DNA of 41,241 nt. Source: Halorubrum saccharovorum DSM 1137. GTDB lineage: Archaea; Halobacteriota; Halobacteria; Halobacteriales; Haloferacaceae. The stretch is from the NCBI RefSeq assembly GCF_000337915.1, contig NZ_AOJE01000021.1:136590-177830 (forward strand). Reading direction: 5' to 3'. Both the position numbers and the translations under genes were made by a program. Below are positions 22,701-40,986 of this stretch, piece after piece; the first letter of the stretch is position 1; each line of letters starts with the position of its first letter. Under the pieces are notes generated by a model. It did no database searches, had not been told where the DNA came from, and saw only the letters and a program-made list of their open reading frames with translations.

Positions 22701-23925
22701 CAAGGACTTCATTCTCCAGTTGACGATGGAGATCGTTAGCGAGTCCGACGACGGCATCATCCCCATCACCGACATCGACGGCGAAGAGGACCTCCTCACC
22801 CGCATCGAGGCCGAGTTCGAGCGCGTCTGGGGCGACCACGCCGCCGCCCGCCTCGCCGAAGTCGACGAGGTGCTCGGCAGCCGAAGCGCCGCCGAGGAGG
22901 CGTACCCCAACCTCCGAGCCTGGCTCGAAGACGACCTCTTCGACTACCACGTCTCGACGTTCGATCGAACCCCGATCGTCTGGCGGTTCACCACCGAGCG
23001 CCTCGTCTCGGACCCCGAGGGCGAGGGCTTCGGCTGTCTGGTCGACTACCACCGCATCGACGCGGGGCTGTTCGACCGCCTGCGGAACCGCTACCTCGAA
23101 CCGCGGAAGGGCCTGCTGCGCGAGCGCCGATCGGCCGCGAACCGCCGCCGGAGCGACGAGTCGCTGTCGGCGAGCGAGCAGGCCGACGCCGCCGAGGCGT
23201 ACGCCCGGTGCGAGAGCGGGCTCGAACAGATAACGGTGTTCGAGGACCGACTCGCGACGCTGGCGCAGTCCGACCCCCGATCGCTGTCGGCGGCGACGCG
23301 AGAGACCGCCGCGGCGGCCGCCGAGCGCGTCGCCGAGTTCCGCGAGCGAACTGAGGAACGCCTCGAAACCGTCGACGAACTCGCCGCGATGGACGACGTC
23401 GACCTCGGCGAGCTGTTCACCGAGAACTTCTACGAGAAGGTCGAGGGGCGACGCGAGGAGTGGATCGACGCGCTGGACGACCTCGAAGCCGCGTTCGACG
23501 CCTACGCGGCGGACGCGGATCGGCCGGTGGCGGCGCACCGCTACGACCTGTTCGACTACTACACCGAGGACCTCCTCGGGAGTTCGCACTTCGCGAGCAA
23601 CGGCATCCTCTACGTGACCTACTACTTCGACAAGCTCGAACGGGCCGATCAGGCCCGCCTCGACGGCGGCGGCGTCTCGCGGAAACGGCGGCTGATCTCG
23701 TCGCTCGCGAGCGATCTGGACGCGTACGTCGACCTCGGCGAGTCCGTCGCCGACGACTGCGCGGCGGTCTCGTCGGAGATATCCTCCGACTGGGGCGACC
23801 GCGCGCTCGCGGAGGTCACGACCGCCGGCTACCGGCCGACCCGCAAACACGGCGTCGAGATCAACATCGCGCCGCTGGCCGACGCCGAGATCGTGCCGAA
23901 GACCGTCGACGAACGGGTGCTGTGA
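19717..23925 (+). CDS. pglX: BREX adenine-specific DNA methyltransferase PglX, first copy
   Basis: The 1402-residue protein is a PglX/BrxX-type N6-adenine methyltransferase. Motif I is DPACGSGHFLLYAF from residue 308 (AdoMet binding) and motif IV is NPPY at 509-512. A central target-recognition-like region follows, then a long helical C-terminal part (TTERLVSDPEGEGFG onward). The start MASDSLSQ was chosen because it aligns with the second copy's MSGDSLSQ; an ATG 11 codons upstream is less likely. The central part, about 21253-22740, is AT-richer than both ends and unrelated to the same part of pglX2, whereas the ends are nearly identical to it. PglX methylates a host site and in phage defence supplies recognition. 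It lies 75 bases after the HEPN-like gene and its stop is 2 bases before pglZ. Confidence 0.9.
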   Translation: MASDSLSQRTAQLDKAEREHLEDVVAEMRERVEDNVAFQLTRNGLDDEPDDRDALDEDTKRLVEAIRLEAVDGEDWTEAVDQYVTGVGYTVVNRLAALRCMEVREFVDEEVTVFKQNGLTPAAETLVHEEFLLEEEAILAAYHNACDDLAEEIEILFDRSSAYSLIDPDDDTFAELCEMLDAVPDAVWRADDVLGWVYEYYNRPVVEALDAKNTLEPADVGPANQFYTPHWVVRMLADNSLGKLYLEATDRADAVPAPDALAPEERKDRLVTPEDAPGVPELCTYLIPDEEPGDAPEFDHPRDLRVIDPACGSGHFLLYAFDILERIWWAETDLDRAEIPAKILEHNLHGVDIDLRSCQLSAFNLYLKARTRAEAEGGDFEMPNVGIVCADARVAEVEEATDVLDAITGEGTDLREAIDDVIETFQHTEALGSLLDVSGTLEAAFDAGKTQTELGDYNQGAHQSLNSFLKALRRAVDDQTGDSFGEQNLRSFLHLLVVLTQEYDTALMNPPYGMRGRMPDDVQEYVTEQYDYYPEYYVNFFEACERLSKSDGRIGMLIPWSFMFRKVFEEFRTDFVSEDRNFDFLAEFGYDILDNATVGTVGTVLRVGTAGNEEGTFIRLHDVAKGEKEGKFLSASFENAMDGKVQRRFTRDTSEFSLIPGASVSYWVPKKLRELYTAETLLDADNAEMPDRDSVGVVKQGLATGNDDRFFRQFWESEQASEQFPPISKGGSDAWLLPRISRTVLWENDGQEVKRYSGSRPQNTQFYFSEGVTFNSRKRSGRNFGYMHSQSVFSHVGTAIFPDDLTAWPLIAYLNSRLMTYLKLAQTFERKWEVSTVARLPVIDAVFENEEELAEAAKEQVANVVSKRTLDFTSPHFSGTMVAQMAGYSSTVAYDHPHRTILDDVPWTQPPQVDPDVSLEEMADLAEKHLQEIDSDLEQVSRQTDEMLFDYVGLTEEQQTDVLQEVSLRTIDDPLGDRAEIDASESSAISAEELAKDFILQLTMEIVSESDDGIIPITDIDGEEDLLTRIEAEFERVWGDHAAARLAEVDEVLGSRSAAEEAYPNLRAWLEDDLFDYHVSTFDRTPIVWRFTTERLVSDPEGEGFGCLVDYHRIDAGLFDRLRNRYLEPRKGLLRERRSAANRRRSDESLSASEQADAAEAYARCESGLEQITVFEDRLATLAQSDPRSLSAATRETAAAAAERVAEFRERTEERLETVDELAAMDDVDLGELFTENFYEKVEGRREEWIDALDDLEAAFDAYAADADRPVAAHRYDLFDYYTEDLLGSSHFASNGILYVTYYFDKLERADQARLDGGGVSRKRRLISSLASDLDAYVDLGESVADDCAAVSSEISSDWGDRALAEVTTAGYRPTRKHGVEINIAPLADAEIVPKTVDERVL
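19755..20322 (+). repeat. Direct repeat A, copy 1 (5' end of pglX1)
   Basis: These 568 bases align with 26206-26773 at a constant offset of 6451, with no insertion or deletion and only scattered substitutions. Such a pair is long enough for homologous recombination. An exchange between copies would delete the rest of pglX1 and pglZ. Confidence 0.85.
22981..23196 (+). repeat. Direct repeat B, copy 1 (3' part of pglX1)
   Basis: These 216 bases align with 29450-29665 at a constant offset of 6469. A further pair, 23797-23911 and 30362-30476 (offset 6565), covers the 3' ends. Together with repeat A they bracket the unrelated central cassettes of the two pglX genes. Confidence 0.85.
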
Positions 23926-23927
23926 CC

Positions 23928-26093
23928 ATGCCCGCGACCAAGACCCTCCCGCAGTGCGCCGAGGACGCCATCGAGACCGCGATCGACGAGGCGGCCGACG
24001 ACGATCCGGTCGTGCTCTGGTGGGACGACGGCGGCTACCTCCGCGAGGTCGTCGAGAACGCGAGCCGCTCGCTGGGCTGCGCGTTCCGCGCGGCCGAGGG
24101 GACCCCCCTGGAGCTCCGCGCCGAGGCGCCCCGCGACCGCACCGTCTGGTACGTCCCGCAGGCGCGCGGCGACGACGTGGACTGGTTCAGAGACGTCGAA
24201 CACACCGGCGGCGTCGTCGAGGGGCACATCGGTAAGCTCGCGGCGCGCTGCTTCGAGAACGACCGCCTCCAGGCCGCCTCGATCCGCACAGCCTACGAGG
24301 AGTCCGCCGAGGGCGACCGCGAGCAGGTCGCGACGACGCTCTTCCGAGCGCTCAACGGCGAGGGCGGTCTCCCGACGCTTCGGGGGCTCCAGACGAAGAT
24401 CGTCCTCGACGGCCACGACGACCCGGTGCAGTTCGTCCTCGAACACGGCGCCGAGAACCTCCCCGACGACCCCGACGACCTCCTGCAGATCCGCGACCTG
24501 CTGGTCGACGACGGCGTCGCGGCCGTCGCGGGCGTCACCGACGAGGACGAGCTCGTGACGCGGACGCGCCGCTGGGCGGTCGCCGAGTGGCTCGTCGAGG
24601 AGGGGCTCGACGAGTCGCTGCTCGACGCCGACTACCGACCCGATCCCGGGTCGGGGCTGGGCATCTCCCGGCCCGAGCTCCAGTCGCTGCTGAGCAAGGT
24701 CGACACCGGGCGCGCCGGAGAGCTGGCGAGCGTCTACCTCGACCCCGACGCCCGCTTCTGGCACGACGTGTTGCGAACCTACGACGACCCGTGGGAGCTC
24801 GCCGACTGCCCGGTCGACGCCTCGCTCGAACACGAGCTGTGGGACGACTGGACGCGCTCCTTCCGCGAGGGCGCGTACGAGACGTGCGCGGCCCGGGCGT
24901 CGACGCGCCACCGGCGGCTGGAGACGGTCTACGGCGACGTCCCGTGGACGCGCGTCTGGGAGCAGGCCGTCGAGGTCGCCAACCTCGGGCACGAGCTCGA
25001 AACGTGGGAAGAGCGCGGCGACACGACCGACGTCGTCGACCTCTACGGCGACGTCGAGGACGGGACCTGGCAGATCGACAACGCCGTCTACAACCTCATC
25101 GTCTCGGGCGACCCCGAGGCCGCCCTTCCCGAAGAGCATCCCGCGACGGCGACGCTCGGCGACCTGCGGGCGTCGCTGACCGAGTCGCGCTATCTCGACT
25201 ACCTCAGCGACCTCGGCGACCTCGTCGCCGACCAGATCGAGGGGGGCTCGCCGTTCGCCGGCGAAAACCACGCCCACCAGTTCTTCGATCAGGAGCAAGA
25301 GCACCTCCAGAGCGGACAGAGCGTGGCGCTGTTCGTCGTCGACGCGCTGCGCTTCGACCTCGCACACGAGCTGGCCGAGTCCGTCCGCCGCGAACTCCCG
25401 GGCCTCGAAGTCGACGAGACACCCTGGGTCGGAACGCTCCCCTCGGACACCGAGTTCGGAAAGGCGGCGCTCACGCCCGGCAGCACGTTCAGTTTCAACG
25501 TCGAGCTCGACGACGGGGAGCTCGTCCCCCAGCGCAACGGCCGCGCGATCGACAACCGCCAGCGCGAGAAGCTGTTGCGGGAGGACGGCTGGAGCTACAT
25601 CATGCAGAGCGAGGACGACGCGTCGGGCTGGAGCAGCACCCGCGTCGCCTACTACTGGAACGACCTCGACAAGGCCGGCGAGGAGGAGCTGACCGACTTC
25701 GAGGCCGTGTTCAGCGACCGGATCGAGACGATCTCGGATATCATCTGCGAGAAGATCGACCGGGGCGAGTGGGACCGGGCGTACATCCTCGCCGATCACG
25801 GTTTCGTCTCCCTCCCGCAAAGCGTCGACATCGACGACATCCACCCGCCGGACGAGGCCGAGAAAGTGACCCGCCGGTGGGTCGCCGGCGAGGACCTCGA
25901 CGCGGACGCGCCGGGCGTCCTCCTCGACGAGAACGCGCACCTCGGCTACCTCGACGACGACACGAGGATCAGCGCCCTCGCGGACCCGATCCAGCGCTTC
26001 CGCAATCAGGGGCTCCCCGACGCCCGCTTCTACCACGGCGGCGTCCTCCCCCAGGAGTTCGTGCTGAACTTCGTCACGATCACGCAGGAGTGA
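23928..26093 (+). CDS. pglZ: BREX alkaline-phosphatase-superfamily protein PglZ
   Basis: The 721-residue protein ends in a PglZ domain of the alkaline phosphatase superfamily. Metal-site motifs are present: VVDALRFD with D472, ILADHGFVSLP with D623 and H624, and YHGG with H703. The N-terminal 450 residues are helical and acidic, starting with a WWDDGGYLREVV segment seen in PglZ proteins. PglZ is a core BREX component required for defence; a metal-dependent phosphatase or nuclease role has been discussed, and its in vivo substrate is not settled. The ATG is two bases after the pglX1 stop and 74 bases separate its stop from pglX2. It lies between two pglX genes, so one PglZ may serve both methyltransferases. 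Confidence 0.9.
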   Translation: MPATKTLPQCAEDAIETAIDEAADDDPVVLWWDDGGYLREVVENASRSLGCAFRAAEGTPLELRAEAPRDRTVWYVPQARGDDVDWFRDVEHTGGVVEGHIGKLAARCFENDRLQAASIRTAYEESAEGDREQVATTLFRALNGEGGLPTLRGLQTKIVLDGHDDPVQFVLEHGAENLPDDPDDLLQIRDLLVDDGVAAVAGVTDEDELVTRTRRWAVAEWLVEEGLDESLLDADYRPDPGSGLGISRPELQSLLSKVDTGRAGELASVYLDPDARFWHDVLRTYDDPWELADCPVDASLEHELWDDWTRSFREGAYETCAARASTRHRRLETVYGDVPWTRVWEQAVEVANLGHELETWEERGDTTDVVDLYGDVEDGTWQIDNAVYNLIVSGDPEAALPEEHPATATLGDLRASLTESRYLDYLSDLGDLVADQIEGGSPFAGENHAHQFFDQEQEHLQSGQSVALFVVDALRFDLAHELAESVRRELPGLEVDETPWVGTLPSDTEFGKAALTPGSTFSFNVELDDGELVPQRNGRAIDNRQREKLLREDGWSYIMQSEDDASGWSSTRVAYYWNDLDKAGEEELTDFEAVFSDRIETISDIICEKIDRGEWDRAYILADHGFVSLPQSVDIDDIHPPDEAEKVTRRWVAGEDLDADAPGVLLDENAHLGYLDDDTRISALADPIQRFRNQGLPDARFYHGGVLPQEFVLNFVTITQE

Positions 26094-26167
26094 CTCCGCC
26101 TCTCCCGGGCCCGCTTCGGCAAGGTTGATATGACGGGGGGCGGTCCTAACACACAATTCTCAGCCTC

Positions 26168-29100
26168 ATGTCAGGCGATTCCCTCTCCCAGCGGCAGGCG
26201 CAGTTGGACAAGGCGGAGCGCGAACACCTCGAGGACGTGGTCGCCGAGATGCGCGAGCGCGTCGAGGACAACGTCGCGTTCCAGCTCACCCGGAACGGAC
26301 TCGACGACGAGCCCGACGATGTCGACGCGCTCGACGAGGACACCAAACGGCTCGTCGAGGCGATCCGGCTCGAAGCCGTCGACGGCGAGACGTGGGACGA
26401 GGCGGTCGACCAGTACGTCACGGGGGTCGGCTACACCATCGTCAACCGCCTCGCCGCGCTGCGCTGTATGGAGGTCCGGAGCTTCGTCGACGAGGAGGTC
26501 ACCGTCTTCAAGCAGAACGGGCTGACCCCCGCCGCCGAGACGCTCGTTCACGAGGAGTTCCTCTTGGAAGAGGAGGCCATCCTCGAAGCGTATCACGACG
26601 CCTGCGACGACCTGGCCGAGGAGATCGAGATCCTCTTCGACCGGTCGTCCGCGTACAGCCTGATCGACCCCGACGACGACACCTTCGAGGCGCTCTGCGG
26701 GATGCTCGATTCGGTCCCCGACGCGGTGTGGCGCGCCGACGACGTGCTCGGCTGGGTGTACGAGTACTACAACGTCGACCTGCTCGACGACCTGCGTCGC
26801 AAGGGCGACCGCGAGGGGCTCGAACCCGAGGACGTGCCGCCGGCGAACCAGTTCTACACGCCCCACTGGGTCGTGCGCATGCTCACCGACAACTCGCTCG
26901 GGAAGCTCTACCTCGAACACACGGGCGAGCTACAGGAGGTCGTCGACACGCAGGAGGCGTTCTCGCCGGACGAGCGGAAGAACCGCCCCCTGTCACCGGA
27001 CGAGTCGCCCGATATCGCCGATTTCTGCACCTACCTCGTGCCGAGCGAGGAGGAGGGCGAGCCGACCGACTTCGATCACCCCGAGGAGCTTCGCGTGATC
27101 GATCCGGCCTGCGGCAGCGGGCACTTCCTCCTCTACGCCTTCGACGTGCTCGAACGCATCTGGCGCGCCGAGACCGACCTCCCCGACGAGCAGATTCCCC
27201 GGAAGATCCTCGAACACAACCTCTACGGCGTCGACCTCGACATGCGCGCGTGTCAGCTCTCGGCGTTCAACCTCTACCTGAAGGGTCGCACTCGCGCGGA
27301 GGCCGAGGGCGCCGACGGCTTCGACATGCCCGAGGTCGGGATCGTGTGTGCCGACGCGAGTGTCGCCGAGGTCGACGGCGTCGAGGCGGTGTTCGACGAG
27401 GTCGCCGGCGACGATCCCGAGGTCGCGCAGGCGCTCGATCGCATCCTCGACGCCTTCGAGGAGGTTCACGGGCTCGGGAGCCTGCTCGACGTGCGCGGGA
27501 CGCTCGGCGACCTGTTCGAGGACGACGCCGAGGTCGGCGGCACGCAACTCACGCTCGGCGACGACCCCCGCGAGAGCCACACCCTCGGGCAGGTGCTCCA
27601 CAGTCTGCGGGAGGCGGTAGAGGAACACCGCGAAACCGACTCGTTCCTCGCGCAGGACCTCCGGAGTTTCGTGCGACTGCTGGACATTCTGGCGCAGGAT
27701 TACGACGTGGCGCTGATGAATCCGCCGTATGGGTCTCGGAATCGGATGCCGGAAAGCGTGAAAGGGTACATCCGGGAACACTACGACTATCCCGCAGAGT
27801 TCTACGTCAATTTCTTCGAAGTTTGCGAGAACATCACTTCCTCTGGCGGCCGTATCGGGATGCTAGTGCCCCAATCCTTTATGCTAAAGAACAAATTCCG
27901 AGAGTTCAGGAAGGATTTCATAAACGGTAATAATAACTTCGACTTCTTGGCAGAGTTTGGGTTAGGTATTCTGGACAACGCGACAGTCAGGACCGCGGCA
28001 ACGGTCACTCGATCAGGTGTTGAGCAATCAGATCCGACGGGGTACTTCCTACGCCTGCATGACCTTCCATCTCACGAGAAGGAGAGTGTATTCAACGATC
28101 TAATCACTGGTGCCGAAACTGATGTTACGCGGACCTTCGAGGTTCCACTTAGCGAATTCGCAGATATTCCCGGACATACAATATGCTACTCGACTCCTTC
28201 GGAGGTTCGAGAGCTACATGACTCTGAGCTAAAGCTTGACGCCGAGCAGGCCGACATCGAAGGAGAATCTGTCGGCGTCGCTCGTCAAGGAGTGGCTACC
28301 GCGGATAACGATCGATTTCTCCGTTTTCACTGGGAATCGTCGGGGCTTAGCGATTATGAGCCCATCGCAAGCGGTGGTAAGGATGCTTGGGTTGCGCCAT
28401 TGATCTCCGAAACTGTGGAATGGGGAGACAACGGCGAACGAATAAAACGTTCCAGTCAAACGATCCGAACTCCCAATGAATCGCTATACGGGAAGGAGGG
28501 TCTGACGTGGACGAGAGTGAAGAAAACCGGGCGAAGATTTGGTTACTATCCTGGTGGACTGTTCAGTGACACGGGGTACCTCTTCGTGCCCGACGAAGAG
28601 TATTCGCCGTGGGAGATTATGTCGGTAGTGAACTCGACGCTATACCACTCGTTATTCTTGTCTCTTAGTACAGAGAGAAACTGGAACTCCGGAGACGTTG
28701 GAAGAATGCCGTGGTTCAGGAAGTTCGAGAATACTTCTGGCCTCAAAGAGGTGGCAAAAGACCAGTATAAAACGATGATTGAGAGATATCACTCTGATCC
28801 AGCCAGTCCATACTACGTCGGGCCAGAGATGCTCCCCCAGGATGTGGCAGATGAATTTTCGTACTCTCATCCACATACTTCAGTGATAGTCGATGGAGTG
28901 TCTCCTGAGTACGGAGTCACTGACCCGAGCCAGCCGATTAGCGCTCTTGCGAGAGAGTCTAAACAAAAAGATATCTCTCGGCGGAAGGAACTACTGGAAT
29001 CTTTTGCAAAAATAAATAAAATCGTGTACGATGCCGTCGATATTTCCAAAGACACGAGGGAAGAGATACTTGAAGAGGTCTATCTGCGAACGTTAGAGTC

Positions 29101-30490
29101 CCCCGAAGATCGCGAAGTGCCCGATCCTGAATCGGTCCCCGAAGTTCCCGACAACATCGACGAGCAGGTCAAGGACCTCGTCCATCACTTCGCGATGGAG
29201 GCCGTCCGCGAGGAGGACGACGGGATCGTTCCGGTGTATGAGACCGACGACCAGCCCGACATGCTCGATCGGATCGTCGAGCGCTTCGAGGACGCCTACG
29301 GCGAGCACGCCGCCGATCGGCTGATCGAGGTCGACGAGATCCTCGGGACCGAGTCCGCCAGCGAGGAGGCGTACCCCAACCTCCGGGCGTTCGTCGCCGA
29401 GGACCTCTTCGACTACCACGTCGATCGCATGGCGAACACGCCGATCGTCTGGCGGTTCACCACCGAGCGCCTCGTCTCCGACTCGACCGGCGAGGGCTTC
29501 GCCTGCTTCGTCGACTACCACGGCATCGACGCCGGGCTGTTCGACCGCCTCTCGAACCGCTACCTCGAACCGCGGAAGGCCGACCTGCGCGAGCGCCGGT
29601 CGGCGGCCAACCGCCGCCGGAGCGACGACTCGCTGTCGGCGAGCGAGCAGGCCGACGCCGCGGAGCGGTACGAGCGCTGCGCGAGCGGCCTCGACCAGAT
29701 CGCCGTCTTCGAAGACGTGCTCCAGGAGTTGGGCAGCACCGACGAGCGCGACTTCGACGACGAGGACCGCGAGCGCGTCGCGGACCTGGCCCCGAAGGTC
29801 GCCGCCTTCCGCGAGGAGACCCGCCAGCGCGTCGAGACGCTTGCTGACCTGCGCGAGCGCAAGAGCGACGAGTGGTTCCGAGAGACGTTCTCGAACAACT
29901 TCTGGAACGCCGTCGACGAGTGGCGCGACGAGTGGCTCGACGCCCTCGCCGACCTCGAACGCGCCTGCGAGGCGTACGGCCGACCCAGCGACGAGCCGGT
30001 CGAAGCGCACCTCGCCGACCTGTTCGACTACTTCTCCTGGCGGCTCAAGGGCTCGGACCACTACTCCAGTACGGGCATCCTCTTTCTGACCTACTACTTC
30101 GAGCGCGAGGGCGCCGCCCTCCTCGACGACGAGGGGCACCCGCACGACAACCTGACCGCGGACGAGCGCCTGCTCGCCTCGCTCGCGACCGGCCTCGACG
30201 ACCCGAGCGTCGTCGACCGGGAGTACCTGGAGGCGATGGCCGACGCGGAGGGCGTCGAGAGCGCCGCCGACCTCCCGCCGCTGGCCGAGTTCAAGGCGCT
30301 CGCCGAGGAGATCGACGACCGCTGCCAGGCCGTGGACGAGCGGGTCCCCTCGGACTGGGCCGACCGCGCGCTCGCGGAGGTCACGACCGCCGGCTACCGA
30401 CCGAACCGCAAACACGGCGTCGAGATCAACATCTCGCCGCTCGCCGACGCCGAGATCGTGCCGAAGACCGTCGACGACCAGGTGTTGTAA
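26168..30490 (+). CDS. pglX: BREX adenine-specific DNA methyltransferase PglX, second copy
   Basis: The 1440-residue protein has motif I DPACGSGHFLLYAF from residue 312 and motif IV NPPY at 518-521, so both AdoMet-binding and catalytic motifs are intact. The N-terminal 200 residues and the C-terminal third are very close to the first copy. The central region, about 27733-29170, differs completely and is AT-rich, with codons such as ATA, AAT and TTA rare in the flanks. It includes a KDAWVAPLI segment parallel to SDAWLLPRI in the first copy, so the architecture is conserved while the sequence has changed. The two enzymes probably recognise different DNA sites. It is followed by a 94-base gap containing a 9-bp tandem repeat and then brxHII. 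Confidence 0.9.
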   Translation: MSGDSLSQRQAQLDKAEREHLEDVVAEMRERVEDNVAFQLTRNGLDDEPDDVDALDEDTKRLVEAIRLEAVDGETWDEAVDQYVTGVGYTIVNRLAALRCMEVRSFVDEEVTVFKQNGLTPAAETLVHEEFLLEEEAILEAYHDACDDLAEEIEILFDRSSAYSLIDPDDDTFEALCGMLDSVPDAVWRADDVLGWVYEYYNVDLLDDLRRKGDREGLEPEDVPPANQFYTPHWVVRMLTDNSLGKLYLEHTGELQEVVDTQEAFSPDERKNRPLSPDESPDIADFCTYLVPSEEEGEPTDFDHPEELRVIDPACGSGHFLLYAFDVLERIWRAETDLPDEQIPRKILEHNLYGVDLDMRACQLSAFNLYLKGRTRAEAEGADGFDMPEVGIVCADASVAEVDGVEAVFDEVAGDDPEVAQALDRILDAFEEVHGLGSLLDVRGTLGDLFEDDAEVGGTQLTLGDDPRESHTLGQVLHSLREAVEEHRETDSFLAQDLRSFVRLLDILAQDYDVALMNPPYGSRNRMPESVKGYIREHYDYPAEFYVNFFEVCENITSSGGRIGMLVPQSFMLKNKFREFRKDFINGNNNFDFLAEFGLGILDNATVRTAATVTRSGVEQSDPTGYFLRLHDLPSHEKESVFNDLITGAETDVTRTFEVPLSEFADIPGHTICYSTPSEVRELHDSELKLDAEQADIEGESVGVARQGVATADNDRFLRFHWESSGLSDYEPIASGGKDAWVAPLISETVEWGDNGERIKRSSQTIRTPNESLYGKEGLTWTRVKKTGRRFGYYPGGLFSDTGYLFVPDEEYSPWEIMSVVNSTLYHSLFLSLSTERNWNSGDVGRMPWFRKFENTSGLKEVAKDQYKTMIERYHSDPASPYYVGPEMLPQDVADEFSYSHPHTSVIVDGVSPEYGVTDPSQPISALARESKQKDISRRKELLESFAKINKIVYDAVDISKDTREEILEEVYLRTLESPEDREVPDPESVPEVPDNIDEQVKDLVHHFAMEAVREEDDGIVPVYETDDQPDMLDRIVERFEDAYGEHAADRLIEVDEILGTESASEEAYPNLRAFVAEDLFDYHVDRMANTPIVWRFTTERLVSDSTGEGFACFVDYHGIDAGLFDRLSNRYLEPRKADLRERRSAANRRRSDDSLSASEQADAAERYERCASGLDQIAVFEDVLQELGSTDERDFDDEDRERVADLAPKVAAFREETRQRVETLADLRERKSDEWFRETFSNNFWNAVDEWRDEWLDALADLERACEAYGRPSDEPVEAHLADLFDYFSWRLKGSDHYSSTGILFLTYYFEREGAALLDDEGHPHDNLTADERLLASLATGLDDPSVVDREYLEAMADAEGVESAADLPPLAEFKALAEEIDDRCQAVDERVPSDWADRALAEVTTAGYRPNRKHGVEINISPLADAEIVPKTVDDQVL
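26206..26773 (+). repeat. Direct repeat A, copy 2 (5' end of pglX2)
   Basis: This is the partner of 19755-20322. The similarity extends to the shared GAGTACTACAAC and then drops, with a short length difference between the genes immediately after. Confidence 0.85.
29450..29665 (+). repeat. Direct repeat B, copy 2 (3' part of pglX2)
   Basis: This is the partner of 22981-23196, encoding the WRFTTERLVS to SASEQADAAE stretch in both proteins. Confidence 0.85.
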
Positions 30491-30511
30491 CGACCGGATC
30501 CTCCACTCTCC

Positions 30512-30574
30512 CAGATACCTCAGATACCCCAGATACCCCAGATACCCCAGATACCCCAGATACCCCAGATACCT
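30512..30574 (+). repeat. 9-bp minisatellite, seven copies, between pglX2 and brxHII
   Basis: The unit CAGATACC(C/T) occurs seven times head to tail, with T in the last position of the first and last copies and C in the five between; a degenerate eighth copy runs into the brxHII start. It fills most of the 94-base gap and ends 10 bases before the ATG at 30585. No separate TATA box is seen inside it. Copy number could vary by slipped-strand replication and alter spacing before brxHII. Confidence 0.9.
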
Positions 30575-30584
30575 CAGATCACCC

Positions 30585-33500
30585 ATGTCACCGACACCAG
30601 ATCTCGCCCCCGGCGACGCGATCACGCTCAACGGCACCCCGGCGGAAGTCATCACGACGGACGCCGTCGGCGACCTCGACTACCTCCGAGCGTACGTCGA
30701 GGGCGACGGCGTGAAGACGGTCTGTCTCGACGACGTCGAGGTCGAGCCGACGCGCGACCGGCTCGCCGCCCTCTCGCCGGCGGCGGCCGATCAGCTGCAC
30801 CCGGACCACGAGGCGGTCTCGGCCGAGTGGTTCGACCTGCGCTCGCAGGCGCTTCGACTGCAGATCGCCCACGAGCAGGGCCAACTGCTGAGCATCTCGA
30901 ACTCGCTGGTCCGGCTCGAACCCTACCAGCTCGCCGCGGTCAACTGGGTGATGCAGAAGCTCCGGCAGCGCGCCCTCATCGCCGACGACGTCGGCCTCGG
31001 GAAGACCATCGAAGCGGGGCTCATCCTCAAGGAACTCACCGCCCGGAATCGCGCCGACCGCGTCCTGTTCGTCGTTCCCGCCCACCTCCAGAAGAAGTGG
31101 ATCCGCGACATGGACCGCTTCTTCGACATCGACCTCACGCCCGCCGACAGGCAGTGGGTCGAGGGAGAGCGCCGGCGACTCGGCGAGGCGGCCAACATTT
31201 GGGACCAAGACCACCAGCAGATGGTCGCGAGTCAGGCCTTCCTCCGACAGGACGAGTTCCGCTCGGCCCTCGAGGAAGCGTTCTGGGACGTGGCGATAGT
31301 CGACGAGGCGCACAAGGCCGCCAAACGGGGCGAGTCCCCCAGTAAGACGTCGAAGATGGTCGAACGGGTCGCCGGCAACTCCGACTCCCTGCTGCTGCTC
31401 AGCGCGACGCCACACGACGGGAAGGGCGAGGCGTTCCGCTCGCTCGTCGAGTACATCGATCCCTTCCTCGTCGCCGAGGACCGAGACCTCTCGAAGGAGG
31501 CCGTCGATCGCGTGATGATTCGTCGCGGGAAGCAGACGCTGTACGACGACGACGGCGAACGCATTTTCCCAGACCGTGAGGTCAACACCGTTCCCGTGGA
31601 GATGACCCACGACGAGCGGCAGTTCTATCGGGCGGTTACCGACTACGTCCAGAACGTCTACAACCGCTCCGAGAAGCTGAACGAGCCCGCGGTCGGGTTC
31701 GCGATGGCGCTCATGCAGAAACGGCTGGTCAGCAGTATCGGCGCCATTCGGGCGACGCTGAGCCGTCGCTTGGGCGACCTCGTCGACGAGCAGTCGACCT
31801 CCACGAGCCTCTCGGAGGAGGCCGCCGCGTATCTCGACGGCGAGGACCTCGACGAGGAGGACAAACAACGAGCCGAGGAGGAACTCTCGGCGCTGACCGT
31901 CACCGAGAGCGACGCGCAACTCGAAGAGGAGATCGAGACGCTTCGCGATCTGGTCGCGCTGGCCGAGGGCATCTCCGTCGACTCGAAGGCCCAGAAGGTG
32001 CGTCGCTACATCCAACAGCTCTTAGAGGAGCAACCCGACGAGAAACTGCTCCTGTTCACCGAGTACCGCGACACGCTCGATTACCTCCTGGAGTTGGTGA
32101 AAGACGAACCGTGGGCCGACGAGATCCTCGTCATCCACGGCGACGTCGACAAGGAGGAACGCGCCCGCATCGAAGACGAGTTCAACCACGGCCAGTCCCG
32201 GCTGCTCTTCGCGACCGACGCCGCGAGCGAGGGGATCGACCTCCAGCACAGCTGCCACATCATGGTGAACTACGAGCTGCCGTGGAACCCGAACCGACTC
32301 GAACAGCGCATCGGTCGCCTCCACCGCTACGGACAGGACAAGGAGGTCAACGTCTGGAACTTCACGTTCGACGATACGCGCGAGGGCGAGATCTTCGACA
32401 TGCTCCAGACCAAGGTCGAGGCCATCCGCGGCAAGCTCGGCAACACGGCCGACGTGCTGGGGATGCTCGACGACATCGACGTCGACTCGCTCATCATGGA
32501 GTCGCTCCGGGACGACGAACCTGCGAGCGCGACCACCGAGGAACTCGAGGCGCTCATCGACGAGCGCCAACGCACGCTCCAGGAGTGGTACGAACGCAGC
32601 CTCATCGACACGAGCACGTTCGACCAGAAGAGCCGAGAGAGGATCCGGGAGGTCATGGACGAGTCCGAGGACGTCTACGGGACGGAGGCCGACATCCACG
32701 AGTTCGTGGAGCGCGGCGTCGAGGCGCTCGGTGGCGACGTCGAGAAAGCCGGGAGCAGTCTCTACAGGGCCCGGCTCCCCCGCTCGCTTCGGCAGGGAAC
32801 GGACGAGGAGTACGGGCCGTTCACGTTCAGTCGAGAGTTCGCGATGGACCACGACGGCATCGACTACGTGTCGCCGGACGACGAGCTGGTCCAGCGACTC
32901 ATGCAGCAAATCCTGGACAGCGAGCACGGCGGTGCCGGACTGAAGCTCCTCCCGTTCGTTGACGAGCCGGGCATCGCGTACAATTACCGCGTGACGTTCG
33001 AGGACGGAACGGGCGACGTCATCCGCGAAGAGATGATCCCCGTGTACGTGGATTCCCGCCACCGAGACCCTCGACAGCGACTGGGCCGGCGCGTTGTCCA
33101 CGGGGACAGCGTCAGCGGATCGCCCGACACAGACCGTGTTCGGGCACTGATTCAACAGCGGGATCGGCTGCGGACAGCGGCTGATCGCTACATCAGCCAG
33201 CGGGTCGCCTCCCTGAGAGCGGAGCTACACGAACGGCGCCGAGAGGAGACCCAACAAGAACTCGATGACCTAGAGGCGTACGCAGAAGCCGAACGACAGC
33301 GCATCGAGGAGTTCATCGAGGAGTACGAGCGGAAGGCGGAGGCCGGGTCGAATATGGACATCGCCATTCGGGGCCAACAGGAGCGGCTGACCAAGCTCGA
33401 ACAGCGGATCGAGGACCGACGGGAGGAATTACAGCGGAAGGCGCAGGTCATCTCACTCGCGCCCGAAGTCGAGAATATCTGCCTGTCGCTCCCGGTCTGA
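30585..33500 (+). CDS. brxHII: BREX helicase BrxHII (SNF2/DEAH-type)
   Basis: The 971-residue protein is a superfamily 2 helicase/translocase of the SNF2-related kind. Motif I is DDVGLGKT with K140, motif II is DEAH at 240-243, motif III is LLLLSATPHDG, and the C-terminal RecA domain has LLLFTEYRDTL, ATDAASEGIDLQ and QRIGRLHRYGQ (motif VI). A coiled-coil-like tail (residues 840-960, RREETQQELDDLEAY and onward) follows. BrxHII is the helicase listed for BREX types 3 and 5, and takes the place of BrxL or BrxHI in other types. It is the last gene of the cluster. The start has a minisatellite directly upstream, and an 84-base spacer after the stop leads into another tandem repeat. Confidence 0.9.
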   Translation: MSPTPDLAPGDAITLNGTPAEVITTDAVGDLDYLRAYVEGDGVKTVCLDDVEVEPTRDRLAALSPAAADQLHPDHEAVSAEWFDLRSQALRLQIAHEQGQLLSISNSLVRLEPYQLAAVNWVMQKLRQRALIADDVGLGKTIEAGLILKELTARNRADRVLFVVPAHLQKKWIRDMDRFFDIDLTPADRQWVEGERRRLGEAANIWDQDHQQMVASQAFLRQDEFRSALEEAFWDVAIVDEAHKAAKRGESPSKTSKMVERVAGNSDSLLLLSATPHDGKGEAFRSLVEYIDPFLVAEDRDLSKEAVDRVMIRRGKQTLYDDDGERIFPDREVNTVPVEMTHDERQFYRAVTDYVQNVYNRSEKLNEPAVGFAMALMQKRLVSSIGAIRATLSRRLGDLVDEQSTSTSLSEEAAAYLDGEDLDEEDKQRAEEELSALTVTESDAQLEEEIETLRDLVALAEGISVDSKAQKVRRYIQQLLEEQPDEKLLLFTEYRDTLDYLLELVKDEPWADEILVIHGDVDKEERARIEDEFNHGQSRLLFATDAASEGIDLQHSCHIMVNYELPWNPNRLEQRIGRLHRYGQDKEVNVWNFTFDDTREGEIFDMLQTKVEAIRGKLGNTADVLGMLDDIDVDSLIMESLRDDEPASATTEELEALIDERQRTLQEWYERSLIDTSTFDQKSRERIREVMDESEDVYGTEADIHEFVERGVEALGGDVEKAGSSLYRARLPRSLRQGTDEEYGPFTFSREFAMDHDGIDYVSPDDELVQRLMQQILDSEHGGAGLKLLPFVDEPGIAYNYRVTFEDGTGDVIREEMIPVYVDSRHRDPRQRLGRRVVHGDSVSGSPDTDRVRALIQQRDRLRTAADRYISQRVASLRAELHERRREETQQELDDLEAYAEAERQRIEEFIEEYERKAEAGSNMDIAIRGQQERLTKLEQRIEDRREELQRKAQVISLAPEVENICLSLPV

Positions 33501-33732: not shown

Positions 33733-33945
33733 TCACAGGTGGCGCGTATCGGTCGTGCGGCCGGACGTATCGGCGTTGCGGGTGCAGGTCTCCGCGCCGA
33801 CGCGCTCGAACGCGTCGCGGATCCCCGCGGCACTCACCCGCCCGCCCGGCGTCACTGCGGGAACGTCGCTCGCAGTGACAGTGCCCCCGACGGCGGGGGC
33901 GTGCGCAAACGACTGTGGGTCCGAGAACGAGATCCCGCCGAGAGC
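33733..33945 (-). pseudogene. Possible C-terminal remnant of a chromosomal gene
   Basis: A minus-strand frame of about 70 codons, open from a stop at 33946-33948 to a stop at 33733-33735, has coding-like haloarchaeal codon use with G or C in most third positions. It reads in part [16 protein letters not shown], then RVSAAGIRDAFERVGAETC. No good start or promoter is present, and composition turns AT-rich at about 33950, so the front of the gene seems to have been replaced. It may be a relic of the gene once adjoining the BREX cluster. I do not recognise the family. Confidence 0.25.
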
Positions 33946-34004
33946 TCATTGGTCGTGAGACACACACCGATGGAGTTGAAGTCAGCTGTCAAATTGTCTT
34001 TATT

Positions 34005-34154
34005 GATATTTGCGCCAGTAACTACATAAGGAAGTGTGACTTCCTTTCGAGCAACCAGCAACCGATCGGAACGGGCTTGGGGTTGTCTCCGGCGTCGAGA
34101 ACCGCGCCTGAGTGTCCCGAACCCTCGTTCATCGGTGGCCGCTGGGTTCAAACT
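34005..34154 (+). promoter_or_regulatory. Promoter region and conserved leader of pilin gene 1
   Basis: The 26 bases at 34005-34030 (GATATTTGCGCCAGTAACTA then CATAAG) recur with one mismatch at 34766-34791 before the second pilin gene. The TACATAA element is a TATA candidate, which would give a leader of about 100 bases, unusual beside the leaderless genes elsewhere in the window. The last 26 bases before the ATG (GTTCATCGGTGGCCGCTGGG then TTCAAACT) are identical in both genes, which suggests a conserved function in translation control or a recent duplication. Confidence 0.45.
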
Positions 34155-34568
34155 ATGAAACCAAGCAACCAATCCAACGCGGAGGACCGGGCAGTGAGTC
34201 CCGTCATCGGCGTCATCCTCATGGTCGCGATCACCGTCATCCTGGCGGCCGTTATCGGGACGTTCGTTCTCGGACTCGGCGATCAGCTAGGCGATACCGC
34301 GCCGCAGGCGAGCTTCACGATTGACGGAAACAATTCGACTCACGTCAACATAACCAAAACCGGCGGGCAATCGATTGAAGCGTCCGATCTCACGATTTCG
34401 ATTGACGGTGAGAGAGGGACCGATGGCTTTGGTTCTGGACCGTGGCAGAGTGGTGAACAGAAGAGCGTTAACGTCTCCAGTATCGCTCCGGCCGGAGAGG
34501 CCGAAGTTCGGATAATTCACGATCCGAGTGGCAGCGCGATCTTCCAAGACACGTACGACTTCAGCTGA
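34155..34568 (+). CDS. Haloarchaeal type IV pilin, copy 1
   Basis: The 137-residue protein has a short charged leader ([13 protein letters not shown]) followed by [19 protein letters not shown], the conserved hydrophobic segment of haloarchaeal PilA-type pilins. The prepilin peptidase PibD is expected to cut before or near VSPVIG; the helix would then form the pilus core. The rest is a small beta-rich, N-glycosylatable head (NNS, NST, NIT, NVS sites). The ATG lies at the end of the conserved leader; longer open frames upstream are not pilin-like. The first 140 bases are almost identical to copy 2, and a 30-base block near the 3' end (34515-34544) is identical to it, while the middle differs. 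It would be an adhesion or surface pilus subunit. Confidence 0.85.
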
Positions 34569-36220: not shown

Positions 36221-38152
36221 CTACTCGAAGATCGGGCCGCCGTCACTGCGGTTGTCGTCGTCTGTCGGGAACGTGCACCTCTCGTCGTCCTCACCATCGT
36301 CTCCGTCGTCGTCTTCACCGTCGTCTTTATCCGGCAGCACCCGGAGCGGGCGCATCATGTCGTGGTCCTCGTGTTCGAGCATGTGGCAGTGCCACATATA
36401 CCAGCCAGTCTGGTCGTTGAAGAGTCCCTCGTACTCCCCGAAGTGGACGATGATGTGCGTGACCTGCCCGGGGTCGACGGTGACGACGTCGTTCCAGCCC
36501 CGTTCTCCCTGCTTCGGCGGTGAGAGCGTCTCCGGGTCGATAGAGTCCGCTTCGGGATCGAAGTCGCCGTAGGATTGGTGACCGAGCACCTGGAAGTGGA
36601 CGAGGTGGAGATGGACGGGATGAGACATCGCAGTGCGGTTAACGATGCTCCAGATCTCCGTCGTTCCTTTCCGCGGCGTCTCGGTTGCGGCGTCGTAGAG
36701 CCGATTGCCCAGTGGCTCCTCCCCGGTCCCGAGGAGGTGTAGCTGCCGCCCGTTCTCGTCTGTCTGAGTCGCCAGGGTGACGTGACGGTTCCTGTCCGCC
36801 GATTCGACCGGGATGTCGGGAACGCGACCGAGTGAGTTCGGTACCTGACTCGTGTCGTCCCCGCCAGAAGTGTTCTGGACGTCGACGAGTAGAACCTCCG
36901 GGAGCGGTTCGACTCCGTCGTCGGTTCCGACCGATCCGCGGAACTCCGCGGGCGCGTCGTTGTGAAGGAGGAGTGTCGAGCCTGCATAGTCGGCGAAGTC
37001 GACGACGACGTCGGCACGGGCGCTCGATCCAAGCTGCAGGCGGTCCTCAACCTGTCGGGGTTGTGCGAGGAGTCCCCCGTCGTTGCCGACGAGGGTGAGA
37101 GCTGGACCGTCTTCCCCCGTTGTCCCCGTCGCTTCGTCGTACTCGACGAGCTTGAGGCTGTAGAAGCGGCTGTTCGACCCATTGAGCAACCGGAGTCGAT
37201 ACGACCGAGGCTCGACGGTCAATCGCGGCCACGCCTTTCCGTTGACGACGGACGTGTCGCCGTAGAACTGCGGCACGATACTCGGGTCGGGGCCGGAACC
37301 GCCACCATCAGTCGGCCCTGTCGGATAGAAGAGGCTCCCGTCCTCTTCGAACGTCCTGTCCTGCAGGACGAGCGGGATCTCGTACTCGCCCTCGGGGAGA
37401 CCGAGTTCGTCCTCCCGATCAGACCTAAGCAAATAAAAGCCAGCGAGCCCAGCGTAAACGTTCAGTCGGGTGATCCCGAGCGAGTGGTCGTGGTACCAGA
37501 GCGTCGCGGCCGGCTGATCGTTGACGTAGTAGTAGTCTTTCTTCTCGAACTTCGGCCCCGTCTCCTCGAAGTCCCGCGTGAACCACGCCAGTGGCTTTCC
37601 GTCGCTGGTGTGCTCGACGTTTCCACCGTGGAGGTGCGTGACGACCCTGGTCCCGGTCGAGTCGTACGGAACCATATCACTGTGGATGGTCGTGTCCACG
37701 GGGAGGAGATGCTCGTCGGGCAACTTGTTCTTCCACCGGACGTAAACCGGTTCCCCTCGCCGTGCTTCGATGGTGGGGCCGGGATACTGGCCGTCGTATC
37801 CCCAGACTGTCGTCGGGGGCAGGTCCCGGTGAAGGGTTTGCTGGACCTCCCGTATGTCGACCTCGTAGTAGGGCTGGCCGTCTTTCGTCCCCGTCGGCTC
37901 GATCACGCCGGGGCGCGGAACCTCGTCGACCCACTTCTCAAGACCGGGTGACGAAACCGCGGCCTGCCCAGCCTGAACTGCGCTGGTCTCGCTGCGTGCG
38001 GAGTTCGACTGTCCCGACACGGTGTTCCCTGCGTAACCGCCCAAGCCAATCGCGCCCAGAGCTCGTATCAGGCTCCGGCGGGGAACGAGCGACGATCGAG
38101 ATCTTCCGGTGGTGCCCTCTACTCCGTCCGTTCGTGGATTATCTCGTGGCAT
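36221..38152 (-). CDS. Tat-exported multicopper oxidase (laccase/CotA-like)
   Basis: The 643-residue protein begins with a twin-arginine signal (PRRSLIRALGAIGLGGYAG, residues 24-42) and so is exported folded with copper. Four copper-binding segments are present: THLHGG (H173, H175), LWYHDHS (H221, H223), HPVHLHLVHF (H511, H514, H516) and WHCHMLEHEDHDMM (H588, C589, H590, H594, M599), supplying the T1 site and the T2/T3 trinuclear cluster. It has the three-cupredoxin-domain length of laccases such as the one described from Haloferax volcanii. The end has an Asp/Glu-rich tail (609-637). It would oxidise phenolic compounds, Cu(I) or similar donors with O2 in the cell envelope; substrate cannot be read from sequence. 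No clear TATA box at leaderless distance was found. Confidence 0.92.
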   Translation of the reverse strand: MPRDNPRTDGVEGTTGRSRSSLVPRRSLIRALGAIGLGGYAGNTVSGQSNSARSETSAVQAGQAAVSSPGLEKWVDEVPRPGVIEPTGTKDGQPYYEVDIREVQQTLHRDLPPTTVWGYDGQYPGPTIEARRGEPVYVRWKNKLPDEHLLPVDTTIHSDMVPYDSTGTRVVTHLHGGNVEHTSDGKPLAWFTRDFEETGPKFEKKDYYYVNDQPAATLWYHDHSLGITRLNVYAGLAGFYLLRSDREDELGLPEGEYEIPLVLQDRTFEEDGSLFYPTGPTDGGGSGPDPSIVPQFYGDTSVVNGKAWPRLTVEPRSYRLRLLNGSNSRFYSLKLVEYDEATGTTGEDGPALTLVGNDGGLLAQPRQVEDRLQLGSSARADVVVDFADYAGSTLLLHNDAPAEFRGSVGTDDGVEPLPEVLLVDVQNTSGGDDTSQVPNSLGRVPDIPVESADRNRHVTLATQTDENGRQLHLLGTGEEPLGNRLYDAATETPRKGTTEIWSIVNRTAMSHPVHLHLVHFQVLGHQSYGDFDPEADSIDPETLSPPKQGERGWNDVVTVDPGQVTHIIVHFGEYEGLFNDQTGWYMWHCHMLEHEDHDMMRPLRVLPDKDDGEDDDGDDGEDDERCTFPTDDDNRSDGGPIFE

Positions 38153-38946: not shown

Positions 38947-40986
38947 TCAGACCACCTCGATATTGCCGGCCATAGTGACCTGGTGAGGTTCGCAGACATA
39001 CTCTGCCATCTCACTACTGGCCGTGAACGTCAGCCACTGACCGTCGCCGGGGTCGCTCGTTCGCTGGGTCTGGAGGTCGCCGACGACGTTGCCATCCCCG
39101 TCGCGGATGGCGATGTTGTGGCCGAACCCGTCACCTTCCGTCCAGCCGATCTTGTACGTCTCGCCCTCCTGGAGAGTCAGTGTCGGGTTGGTGTCTCCCT
39201 CGATCGAGCTCGGAGCGATACCCACCCACCCGCCGATCTGTCCGCGGAATTCGAACGTCGGCGGACCCGCGTCCTCCACGGTGATCGTCTGCGTGGCGGT
39301 GGCGGTGGCTCCGACGTCGTCGGTGACGGTTAGTGTCACGTCGTACTCGCCGGCGGAGTCGTAGGAGTGATCCACGGACTGTCCGGTTGCCGACGAACCG
39401 TCGCCGAACGTCCACTCGTAACTCTCGATCGACCCGTCGGGGTCGGACGAGTTCGAAGCGTCGAGCGTCACCACGTCGCCCGGTGCGACGGACGTCGACG
39501 ACGCCGTGAAATCCGCCGTCGGCGACTCGTTGGCGTCTACGGTGATCGTCTGCGTAGCGGTGGCGGTGGATCCGCCGTCGTCGGTGACGGTCAGTGTCAC
39601 GTCGTACTGGCCGGCGGAGCCGTAGGAGTGATCCACGGACTGTCCGGTTGCCGACGAACCGTCGCCGAACGTCCACCCGTAACTCTCGATCGACCCGTCG
39701 GGGTCGGACGAGTTCGAGGCGTCGAGCGTCACCACGTCGCCCGGTGCGACGGACGTCGACGACGCCGTGAACTCCGCCGTCGGCGACTCGTTGCCGCCAC
39801 CGGAGCCTTCGGCGAGCGTCAGCGACCCGAGCGAACTCACCGACTTGTCGCTGCTGATCGCCGGGAGCGCCCATTCGAGGACGCCATCGCGACCGTCGTC
39901 GTCGCTCTCGTTGACGAGGACGCTGAACGGGAACGAATCGCCTGGTCCCTTGCTCTCGGCGAACAGAGCCTCCCAGGGAACCGCCGCGTCGTAGGTCGTC
40001 GTAGACCCGGAACGCGACGTGGTAGCGTCGATGGCGTCGGTCCTAGACTGGGCGTTGCCGTCGATCCAGCGGTGGACAGACGTGCTGCCGTCGACGCGGC
40101 TGAGACCGTACTCTGGGCCGTACGTGTCGCCGCTACCGACGGCCCACTGGATGCTGTCTGCCTGCCACATGTCGACGCCACTGATCGCCGTGTGCGTGTC
40201 GTCGGTCACCTCAACGGTGAGGTAGAGCGCGTCCGCATCGTAGCCGAGGTAGACGTCGGCCGAGAGGTCGTCCGGACCGCTCGGGTCGCTGTCGCCGTCG
40301 ACATCGTCGAACACGTCACCTTCGGGTTCCAGCGTGAAGGCGGGTTCCTCGGCCGTGCCGCCACCCGTCTGCTGGACGGTGTACTCGGTCGGCGTGGGTT
40401 CGATGCCGCTACCGACGTCGATGGAGCCGTTCTGGGACTCGGAGTGAGGCCCGGAGTAGTAGGTTGCCATCTCCTCAGTGGCAGTGAACTCGACGGATTG
40501 TGTGGCTCCTTCTTCGGAGACGGTCTCGGAGCTGACGAGTTCGTTTCCGTCGGCGTCGGCGATGACGAAATTGTGGTCCTCGCCGTCGGTGTTGGTCCAC
40601 TCGACCGTGTAGGTCTCTCCCGCGGTCAACTCCAGAGTCGGATTGGTCAGGTCGGCGATGGAGTCCGGCGAAACCCCCATCCAGACGTGCATGCCGCCAA
40701 CGATATTACAAACTTCCTCGGACGGTCCGCGCATGACCCCGCCCTCGCCGTCCTCCCAGGCGAACTCCCAGCGACCGCGGCCACTGCTGGTATCGATCGT
40801 CACTGCCTCTAGCTCGATGACGTTTCCACTGTCCTCCTGAGCACTGGTGAGGCCGGCCAGACCGCTCAGTGCAGCCGCGCCAGCACCAGTCGCCTGCAGG
40901 AACTGACGACGGTTAGTCGGGAACCTCGGATTCCGATCCCCATAGTCGTCAGCCGGTACGTCGTGGTCGCGATTGTCAGATGTCAT
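38947..40986 (-). CDS. Tat-exported protein: two cupredoxin-like domains flanking a CBM9-like domain and two PKD repeats
   Basis: The 679-residue protein has a twin-arginine signal (NRRQFLQATGAGAAALSGLA, residues 25-44). A cupredoxin-like domain (about 55-192) is followed by a CBM9/DOMON-like domain (about 220-390, with VYLGYDADALYLTVEVTDD and MWQADSIQWAV), two nearly identical PKD domains (WTFGDGSSATGQSV in both), and a second cupredoxin-like domain (about 595-679). The C-terminal one has a complete type 1 copper set: H623, C665, H668, M672 (CEPHQVTM). The N-terminal one keeps H138 and H181 but has S178 and Q185 where Cys and Met are expected. The start is backed by a GGAGTG at 8 bases. An electron-transfer and surface-attachment role is inferred; the multicopper oxidase may be a partner. 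Confidence 0.85.
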   Translation of the reverse strand: MTSDNRDHDVPADDYGDRNPRFPTNRRQFLQATGAGAAALSGLAGLTSAQEDSGNVIELEAVTIDTSSGRGRWEFAWEDGEGGVMRGPSEEVCNIVGGMHVWMGVSPDSIADLTNPTLELTAGETYTVEWTNTDGEDHNFVIADADGNELVSSETVSEEGATQSVEFTATEEMATYYSGPHSESQNGSIDVGSGIEPTPTEYTVQQTGGGTAEEPAFTLEPEGDVFDDVDGDSDPSGPDDLSADVYLGYDADALYLTVEVTDDTHTAISGVDMWQADSIQWAVGSGDTYGPEYGLSRVDGSTSVHRWIDGNAQSRTDAIDATTSRSGSTTTYDAAVPWEALFAESKGPGDSFPFSVLVNESDDDGRDGVLEWALPAISSDKSVSSLGSLTLAEGSGGGNESPTAEFTASSTSVAPGDVVTLDASNSSDPDGSIESYGWTFGDGSSATGQSVDHSYGSAGQYDVTLTVTDDGGSTATATQTITVDANESPTADFTASSTSVAPGDVVTLDASNSSDPDGSIESYEWTFGDGSSATGQSVDHSYDSAGEYDVTLTVTDDVGATATATQTITVEDAGPPTFEFRGQIGGWVGIAPSSIEGDTNPTLTLQEGETYKIGWTEGDGFGHNIAIRDGDGNVVGDLQTQRTSDPGDGQWLTFTASSEMAEYVCEPHQVTMAGNIEVV
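39361..39793 (-). repeat. Tandem DNA repeat encoding the two PKD domains, period 261 bp
   Basis: The block 39361-39532 is repeated at 39622-39793 with only a few substitutions, one unit being 87 codons. The near-identity suggests recent duplication or ongoing gene conversion; copy number may vary between strains. Confidence 0.85.

Follow-up and report, generated by a model that had tools for sequence, protein, structure and literature searches.

The window analysed here, 41,241 nucleotides in full length, is the last 41 kb of contig C21 in the haloarchaeal draft genome of Halorubrum saccharovorum DSM 1137 (G000:C21:136590-177830). Close to its end, on the reverse strand, lies the gene under study, which encodes a protein with a cupredoxin domain near either terminus (Table 1). 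The open reading frame (ORF) contains no ambiguous bases, and the contig ends 255 bp upstream of it. The protein is built from a twin-arginine (Tat) signal, an N-terminal cupredoxin (N-domain), a CBM9-like domain, two PKD domains and a C-terminal cupredoxin (C-domain), in this order. Pfam returned two Copper-bind stretches, CBM9_1 (236-392) and two PKD_4 domains; no match to GSDH or DUF7133 was obtained up to an E value of 1, and the ThuA and 3-keto-disaccharide hydrolase (PF06439) domains are likewise absent by Pfam. The Tat signal scores above the cut-off of the NCBIfam model TIGR01409 and slightly below that of the Pfam model TAT_signal, and the protein is probably exported by this route. 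The CBM9 assignment is a profile match, from which sugar binding is predicted. Residues 50-679 contain 116 Asp or Glu and 14 Lys or Arg; such strong acidity is usual for haloarchaeal secreted proteins. The protein has two cysteines, Cys93 and Cys665.

Table 1. Features of the two-cupredoxin gene and of its surroundings in the window
Feature	Position	Strand	Details
Whole gene, two-cupredoxin protein with Tat signal, no recognised catalytic domain	38947..40986	-	679 amino acids
Predicted Tat signal peptide region (NRRQFLQ...), residues 1-49	40840..40986	-	TIGR01409, 18.5 versus cut-off 16.7 bits
N-terminal cupredoxin region, residues 50-195	40402..40839	-	ligand positions H138/S178/H181/Q185
TCC codon of Ser178, which replaces the copper-ligand Cys	40453..40455	-	TGC/TGT in Cys-bearing HCHQ rows
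Gln185, axial ligand position	40432..40434	-	Gln also in close Cys-bearing paralogues
CBM9-like domain, residues 236-392	39811..40281	-	PF06452, 38.4 bits versus cut-off 23.4
PKD domain 1, residues 399-484	39535..39792	-	Pfam; DNA 95.7% identical to PKD 2
PKD domain 2, residues 486-570	39277..39531	-	Pfam; 91% identical to PKD of G304 g5
C-terminal cupredoxin, residues 574-679	38950..39267	-	ligands H623/C665/H668/M672
Multicopper oxidase, proposed electron acceptor	36221..38152	-	643 amino acids; co-directional, 794 bp downstream of the two-cupredoxin gene
C-terminal end of a gene truncated at the contig border	41053..41241	-	resembles the secreted protein of ~360-400 amino acids that precedes giants

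The two cupredoxins differ in their copper ligands. An earlier note on this DNA had claimed that the C-domain alone keeps His, Cys, His and Met and that the N-domain has Ser178 and Gln185; its numbering is right, and His138 and His181 are retained. The C-domain combines a cupredoxin match (best PF00127 stretch, 603-678) with His, Cys, His and an axial Met, and by these residues qualifies as a predicted type-1 blue copper site. The N-domain lacks the Cys thiolate of such a site, and it also falls short of the stellacyanin-like set of two His, Cys and Gln (His2-Cys-Gln), since Gln185 and both His are present and Cys is absent. This set is complete in the Cys-bearing N-domain paralogues. To follow the fold of the N-domain, a 146-residue segment was modelled by AlphaFold2 on an alignment of 23 sequences, drawn entirely from the window and related loci. 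Block means of the predicted local distance difference test (pLDDT) were 89-98 over segment residues 51-140 and mostly below 50 for residues 20-47. The top Foldseek matches of the model were three-domain nitrite reductases from Hyphomicrobium, and later ones include multicopper oxidases, coagulation factor V, rusticyanin and plastocyanin. VIA-align against the N-terminal cupredoxin of 2dv6 gave a Z score of 16.3 (107 aligned residues, 1.9 A, 29% identity), and Z was ~11 for both rusticyanin and auracyanin. Because the N-terminal segment is thereby predicted to be a cupredoxin, the objection that the earlier note had raised against itself, a segment without this fold, falls away at the level of the model.

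Gln185 had likewise been taken as a mark of copper loss. We could not uphold this, and rejected a lost axial ligand at this position, because the closest Cys-bearing paralogues also have Gln there. Written as their four ligand residues, 12 of 65 N-position rows are HCHQ and 46 are HCHM. In an alignment of 14 N-domains the axial Gln is found in all 14, a uniformity that is partly a matter of choice, as the rows were picked as nearest or Gln-type N-domains and the Met-type N-domain on contig C5 of the same genome was left out; Cys is lacking only in the window protein and in the protein of locus L091 from genome G211. His2-Cys-Gln is the known type-1 ligand set of stellacyanin (PMC11881046), and the type-1 site of the Thermus scotoductus NirK has Gln coordination (PMC6400189). 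Since Gln occurs in the Cys-bearing paralogues and this ligand set is established, a Gln-type copper site that lost Cys alone is the most likely ancestor of the N-domain. The other cysteine of the protein, Cys93 (window 40708-40710), precedes the N-domain core; it is found in 11 of the 14 aligned N-domains, and the segment is missing from the other three.

The two domains had been called internal duplicates on account of a shared pattern. Their likeness is indeed well beyond chance (BLASTP, 45/106 identical, 42%, E 3e-25), and both contain the string W-x-G-[VI]-[SA]-P-[DS]-S-I-x(3)-T-N-P-T-L-x-L-x-x-G-E-T-Y. The motif originally given was loose, and its regular-expression version matched nothing. 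As to their history, the domains are only distant paralogues: the identity of the N-domain to five N-terminal counterparts in genome G304 amounts to 78.6-84.5%, versus 42% to the C-domain of its own protein. A recent internal duplication of both cupredoxins was therefore ruled out, because each has nearer relatives in other genes. On a tree of 108 rows the split between N-domains and other domains is not clean (30 other and 2 N rows versus 63 N and 13 other rows); 9 changes of the N label suffice on this tree, versus 33.9 in shuffles.

The relatives of the window protein are giant secreted proteins of ~880-1980 amino acids, lengths taken from stop-to-stop frames and so slightly above the true ones, in which cupredoxins stand beside sugar-oxidising domains. 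Further genes with the same N-domain are found on contigs C45, C44 and C5 of the same genome. Their products reach ~1970 amino acids and carry an N-terminal and often another, C-terminal, cupredoxin, between which lie GSDH, DUF7133, ThuA, 3-keto-disaccharide hydrolase, malectin, laminin-G or CBM modules. Elsewhere among the 392 genomes sampled, the nearest relatives form a cluster in G304, a genome from a different family within the order; their N-domains reach 84% identity. Within the genus, outside the genome itself, the N-domain has weak matches or none (best E 4.8e-11 among those listed), and because of this the giant-protein cluster looks laterally acquired. The domain mix, which the earlier note had found unusual, is explained by this family of multi-module sugar-oxidising proteins: the window protein shares the cupredoxins at both ends with the two-cupredoxin giants, lacks their GSDH/DUF7133 core and is the enzyme-less mosaic member of the family. 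A bacterial PF06439 (DUF1080) protein is described as a 3-ketotrehalose hydrolase (PMC9007349), which by analogy suggests oxidation at C3 for those giants that carry PF06439. In G304, a protein of secreted appearance (frames of 371-398 amino acids) is encoded immediately before five of the seven giants. A secreted protein of ~360-400 amino acids precedes giants in the H. saccharovorum genome too; the members tested gave no Pfam or NCBIfam match. The truncated gene at the contig end resembles it, the best match of this stretch to another locus (E 3.3e-10) being that of an acidic low-complexity tail.

The homologues were surveyed for the residue at the place of Ser178. The census comprised complete ORFs of >500 amino acids in the fetched loci, which represent top N-domain matches and long ORFs and not a random sample. 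It omitted ORFs truncated where a fetched stretch ended, those of <=500 amino acids and those with a single cupredoxin that is not N-terminal, and false second cupredoxin matches in L116 and L117 were removed. The same replacement of Cys by Ser was found in other lineages, seven of the 22 complete two-cupredoxin ORFs being affected: the window protein (HSHQ), one protein each from G211 (HSYQ) and G342 (HSYM), and two each from G269 (HSNM) and G237 (QSNM). The C-site is His-Cys-His-Met in all 22. ORFs with a single N-terminal cupredoxin have kept Cys without exception (24/24, or 23/23 without the gap-split fragment L006). As judged from ligand residues, this outcome fits the proposal of the earlier note that one domain may carry electrons while the other is structural. 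A tree of 46 N-domains was calculated with the ligand columns removed, and on it the change from Cys to Ser requires at least four events (4-4 over bootstrap trees; three changes are forced by starred branches). The Ser codons of the seven cases are TCC (five), AGC (one) and TCA (one), and both TCC and AGC are one base away from TGC. The second His is also gone, replaced by Tyr or Asn, in three of the four Cys-less lineages, and G237 has lost the first His too. This looks like the decay of a dispensable site in a domain that is itself kept, with the window protein as the least decayed case. Because related species lost the same Cys independently, these proteins seem to manage with a single functional copper site each. 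Taken together, the ligand sets HCHQ, HSHQ and HSYQ, and HCHM, HSYM, HSNM and QSNM, provide a natural series of a copper domain that sheds its ligands while its sequence family is kept, and "copper-binding" annotations of such domains can be wrong at the level of the ligands. In L098 and L099, the sequence S-Q-[TP]-N-R-H replaces the copper loop (two genes each in G269 and G237), perhaps with a new binding function.

We also calculated pairwise ratios of nonsynonymous to synonymous substitution (dN/dS) by the method of Nei and Gojobori with our own script; dS reached 1.3, so the values are rough. For the window N-domain against ten Cys-bearing relatives the ratio was 0.16-0.31, and for the N-domains of three pairs between Cys-bearing relatives it was 0.09-0.25. 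The N-domain as a whole is under purifying selection, and either the Cys was lost recently or the domain is put to a copper-free use. A third reading would be that the N-domain still binds metal in a type-2-like site made of His138, His181, Gln185, Ser or water and perhaps Cys93, and serves in storing copper, in sensing or in redox reactions of low potential rather than in blue-copper electron transfer. Such a site would agree with the change of Cys alone, both His and Gln being left in place, with the wide occurrence of Cys93 and with the purifying selection. But the other Cys-less lineages have lost the second His too (HSYQ, HSYM, HSNM, QSNM), which is the pattern of decay after copper loss, and Cys93 lies in a segment with pLDDT below 50, so its location is not defined by the model. 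We therefore consider metal binding by the N-domain improbable.

The origin of the window protein was followed segment by segment in a comparison with 11 chosen proteins. Residues 1-55 are nearest to the G304 giant g5 (74.5%; the next matches reach 56% over 32 residues and 49% over 55) and the N-domain to the G304 giants g3, g2 and g5 (81-84.5%). Residues 201-391 resemble most the C-terminal CBM9 end of g3 (82%), the PKDs those of g5 (87-91%; next 64-66%) and the C-domain that of the C45 protein of the same genome (77%; next 72% in G405). Between N-domain and CBM9, nine residues replace 1303 residues of g3 (207-1509 of its frame). The signal, N-domain, PKD and C-domain follow each other in g5 in the same order as in the window protein, with AP_endonuc_2, ThuA, GSDH and malectin between N-domain and PKD. 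The near-identity of the two window PKDs in DNA marks a recent tandem copy. The window protein is thus an enzyme-less mosaic of paralogue parts. A query running from the end of the N-domain through CBM9 found matches in 5 of the 392 genomes at E<=1e-8, and the window's own gene was the only full-length match. A frame in G090 aligns from residue 7 of the 247-residue query (48%), and the cupredoxin profile found no domain in it.

Two doubts about the gene itself have to be weighed at this point. The first concerns the assembly. Parts of the gene are ~69-82% identical in DNA to paralogues of the same genome, so it is not a simple chimera of these, and the window contains no N; an assembly artefact keeps some probability, as gaps flanked by repeats exist on contigs C44 and C45. 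In L022, L023 and L024 (C45, C44), runs of N flanked by repeats break the frames of giants and have the appearance of assembly gaps, not of real frameshifts. The second doubt is that the protein could be a decaying remnant, with the loss of the core, the PKD copy and the lost ligand as steps towards a pseudogene, or that Ser178 could be a recent null mutation or a sequencing error. A single base separates TCC from TGC, the enzyme core of the relatives is missing, the junction of N-domain and CBM9 occurs only here among the 392 genomes, the PKD duplication is recent and the contig end is close. However, the ORF is intact across 679 codons, the dN/dS of the N-domain is low, the same change occurred in other lineages and the C-site is intact, and on this evidence we think decay or error unlikely.

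Directly relevant to function is the neighbouring gene for a multicopper oxidase (Table 1). The genome encodes three oxidases of this kind (E<=1e-10), each in the vicinity of a cupredoxin giant or of the window gene: the one on C5 follows a giant after ~0.2 kb in the same direction, and the one on C44 is ~2.8 kb away from a giant in the opposite direction. Among 293 sampled genomes such an oxidase was found in 60, the neighbourhood being examined for a minority of them, and the closest match to the window oxidase (88%) lies ~23 kb from the giant cluster of G304. In G405 an oxidase frame precedes a giant by ~50 bp, both running the same way, in G269 an oxidase lies ~1.2 kb downstream of two giants, all in the same direction, and in G237 one is found ~3.4 kb away from a giant and divergent from it. 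A single frame in G342 (L067:1-1980), cut by the end of the locus, even fuses a multicopper oxidase to a signal and a cupredoxin (HCHM). A different electron acceptor may exist in G304, where a gene for a copper nitrite reductase (with a TIGR02376 score that exceeds the cut-off) is located between giants g3 and g4 (L088:7200-8489). For the H. saccharovorum genome this acceptor was rejected, since its one NirK above the cut-off is on C13, off the contigs of the genes discussed here. Beyond the oxidase, the window encodes a protein with an archaeal type IV pilin N-terminal domain (33915-34568) and, at 19684-33500, two large Eco57I-type methylase proteins and an SNF2/ResIII helicase, by appearance a phage-defence or restriction island.

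We favour, by a little more than even chances, the view that the product of the gene is exported and acts as a carbohydrate-anchored shuttle with one copper, carrying electrons from a sugar dehydrogenase to the oxidase. For such a shuttle we infer export, sugar binding, copper content and electron flow as follows. The C-domain alone would be able to form a type-1 blue copper site. The N-domain would have changed from a stellacyanin-like His2-Cys-Gln site by the replacement of Cys with Ser, and would have kept its fold to serve in structure or docking. Attachment to polysaccharide would be provided by the CBM9-like domain together with the PKD spacers. The giants would oxidise sugars with their beta-propeller domain and hand the electrons to tethered copper domains, which would reduce the neighbouring multicopper oxidase or, in one cluster, perhaps the copper nitrite reductase. 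The window protein, consisting of binding and copper parts only, would serve as an electron relay linking the dehydrogenase giants with the adjacent oxidase. Alternatively, it could be mainly an adhesive protein of the cell surface or matrix, with CBM9 and PKD domains attached to polysaccharide and a copper site that sequesters copper or is incidental, and no electrons would pass to the oxidase. PKD and CBM9-like modules are frequent in surface proteins, and Pfam found no enzyme domain. Yet the oxidase next to the gene is co-directional, each of the three such oxidases in the genome is near such a protein and a natural fusion of cupredoxin and oxidase exists, so that a purely adhesive role has, in our opinion, a low probability.

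A number of observations weigh against the electron shuttle. The GSDH domains of the giants are Pfam assignments only, their dehydrogenase activity is putative, and a PDB sequence search with the GSDH region of G304 found no solved structure at E<=0.01. The full-length model, calculated without alignment, has a pLDDT of 43.9, and nothing was drawn from it on the domain arrangement. The junction of N-domain and CBM9 was not seen in 391 other genomes; therefore, no orthologue shows that the protein is maintained. The loss of the N-site Cys appears linked to the presence of a second cupredoxin by raw counts (7/22 versus 0/23, Fisher p 0.0038; 7/24 with two gap-split genes of the same genome added, p 0.0094), but these values are uncorrected for kinship and there are 3-4 independent pairs only, so that phylogenetic support for this link is lacking and the association is suggestive. 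The neighbourhood of giants and oxidases is also not general. The oxidase listed for G211 is separated from one giant by ~45 kb, and that of G090 does not share a contig with the giant that was examined. Two further oxidases in G237 and one further oxidase in G304 are found away from the examined giants, and the oxidase and the best-listed single-cupredoxin matches occupy different contigs in G187, G270, G280, G289 and G294.

A more far-reaching and rather doubtful extension of the shuttle is a haloarchaeal extracellular system in which giant dehydrogenases, anchored cupredoxins and multicopper oxidases would pass electrons from polysaccharide to oxygen (or nitrite). The window gene would then be a shuffled, free-standing relay whose N-domain was turned into a copper-free docking domain, a change that was repeated elsewhere, each case seen being Cys to Ser. 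If true, this would be an outside-the-cell electron pathway for sugar oxidation in haloarchaea. Such a pathway was not found in the open-access literature searched, the coverage of which is incomplete, and nothing relevant was found there on such fusions or on copper-less cupredoxins. The wider pattern of repeated Cys loss, Gln-type ancestry and oxidase neighbourhood is of more interest than the single protein.

Several known systems can be compared with the window protein. Plastocyanin/azurin-type blue copper domains (PF00127), including the haloarchaeal halocyanins, share with its C-domain the His-Cys-His-Met ligands, the C-x2-H-x3-M loop and the PF00127 match, and with its N-domain the predicted fold. 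They differ in that the N-domain is without Cys and in that the window protein, which has a Tat signal, carries its cupredoxins at either end of a multi-domain chain. Stellacyanin (PMC11881046) and the type-1 site of the T. scotoductus NirK (PMC6400189) have the axial Gln of the N-domain family; in the window protein the Cys is Ser, whereas the Cys-bearing paralogues would be the matching case by their ligand residues. The best structural match of the N-domain, the three-domain nitrite reductase of Hyphomicrobium denitrificans (2dv6, 6tfd), also has a cupredoxin tethered N-terminally to a larger protein, there a nitrite reductase and here CBM9, PKD and a second cupredoxin. Haloarchaeal giants annotated as "PQQ-dependent sugar dehydrogenase" or "ThuA domain-containing protein" have the same N-domain family and, in the members compared, the same two-cupredoxin frame, but the GSDH, DUF7133, ThuA and 3-keto-disaccharide hydrolase domains are missing from the window protein. 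Finally, the bacterial 3-keto-glycoside pathway with DUF1080/PF06439 (PMC9007349) resembles several relatives in which PF06439 is found in one chain with GSDH or DUF7133. The relatives would differ from it by a putative copper-protein exit for electrons and by their fusion into single giants, and the window protein by the absence of PF06439.

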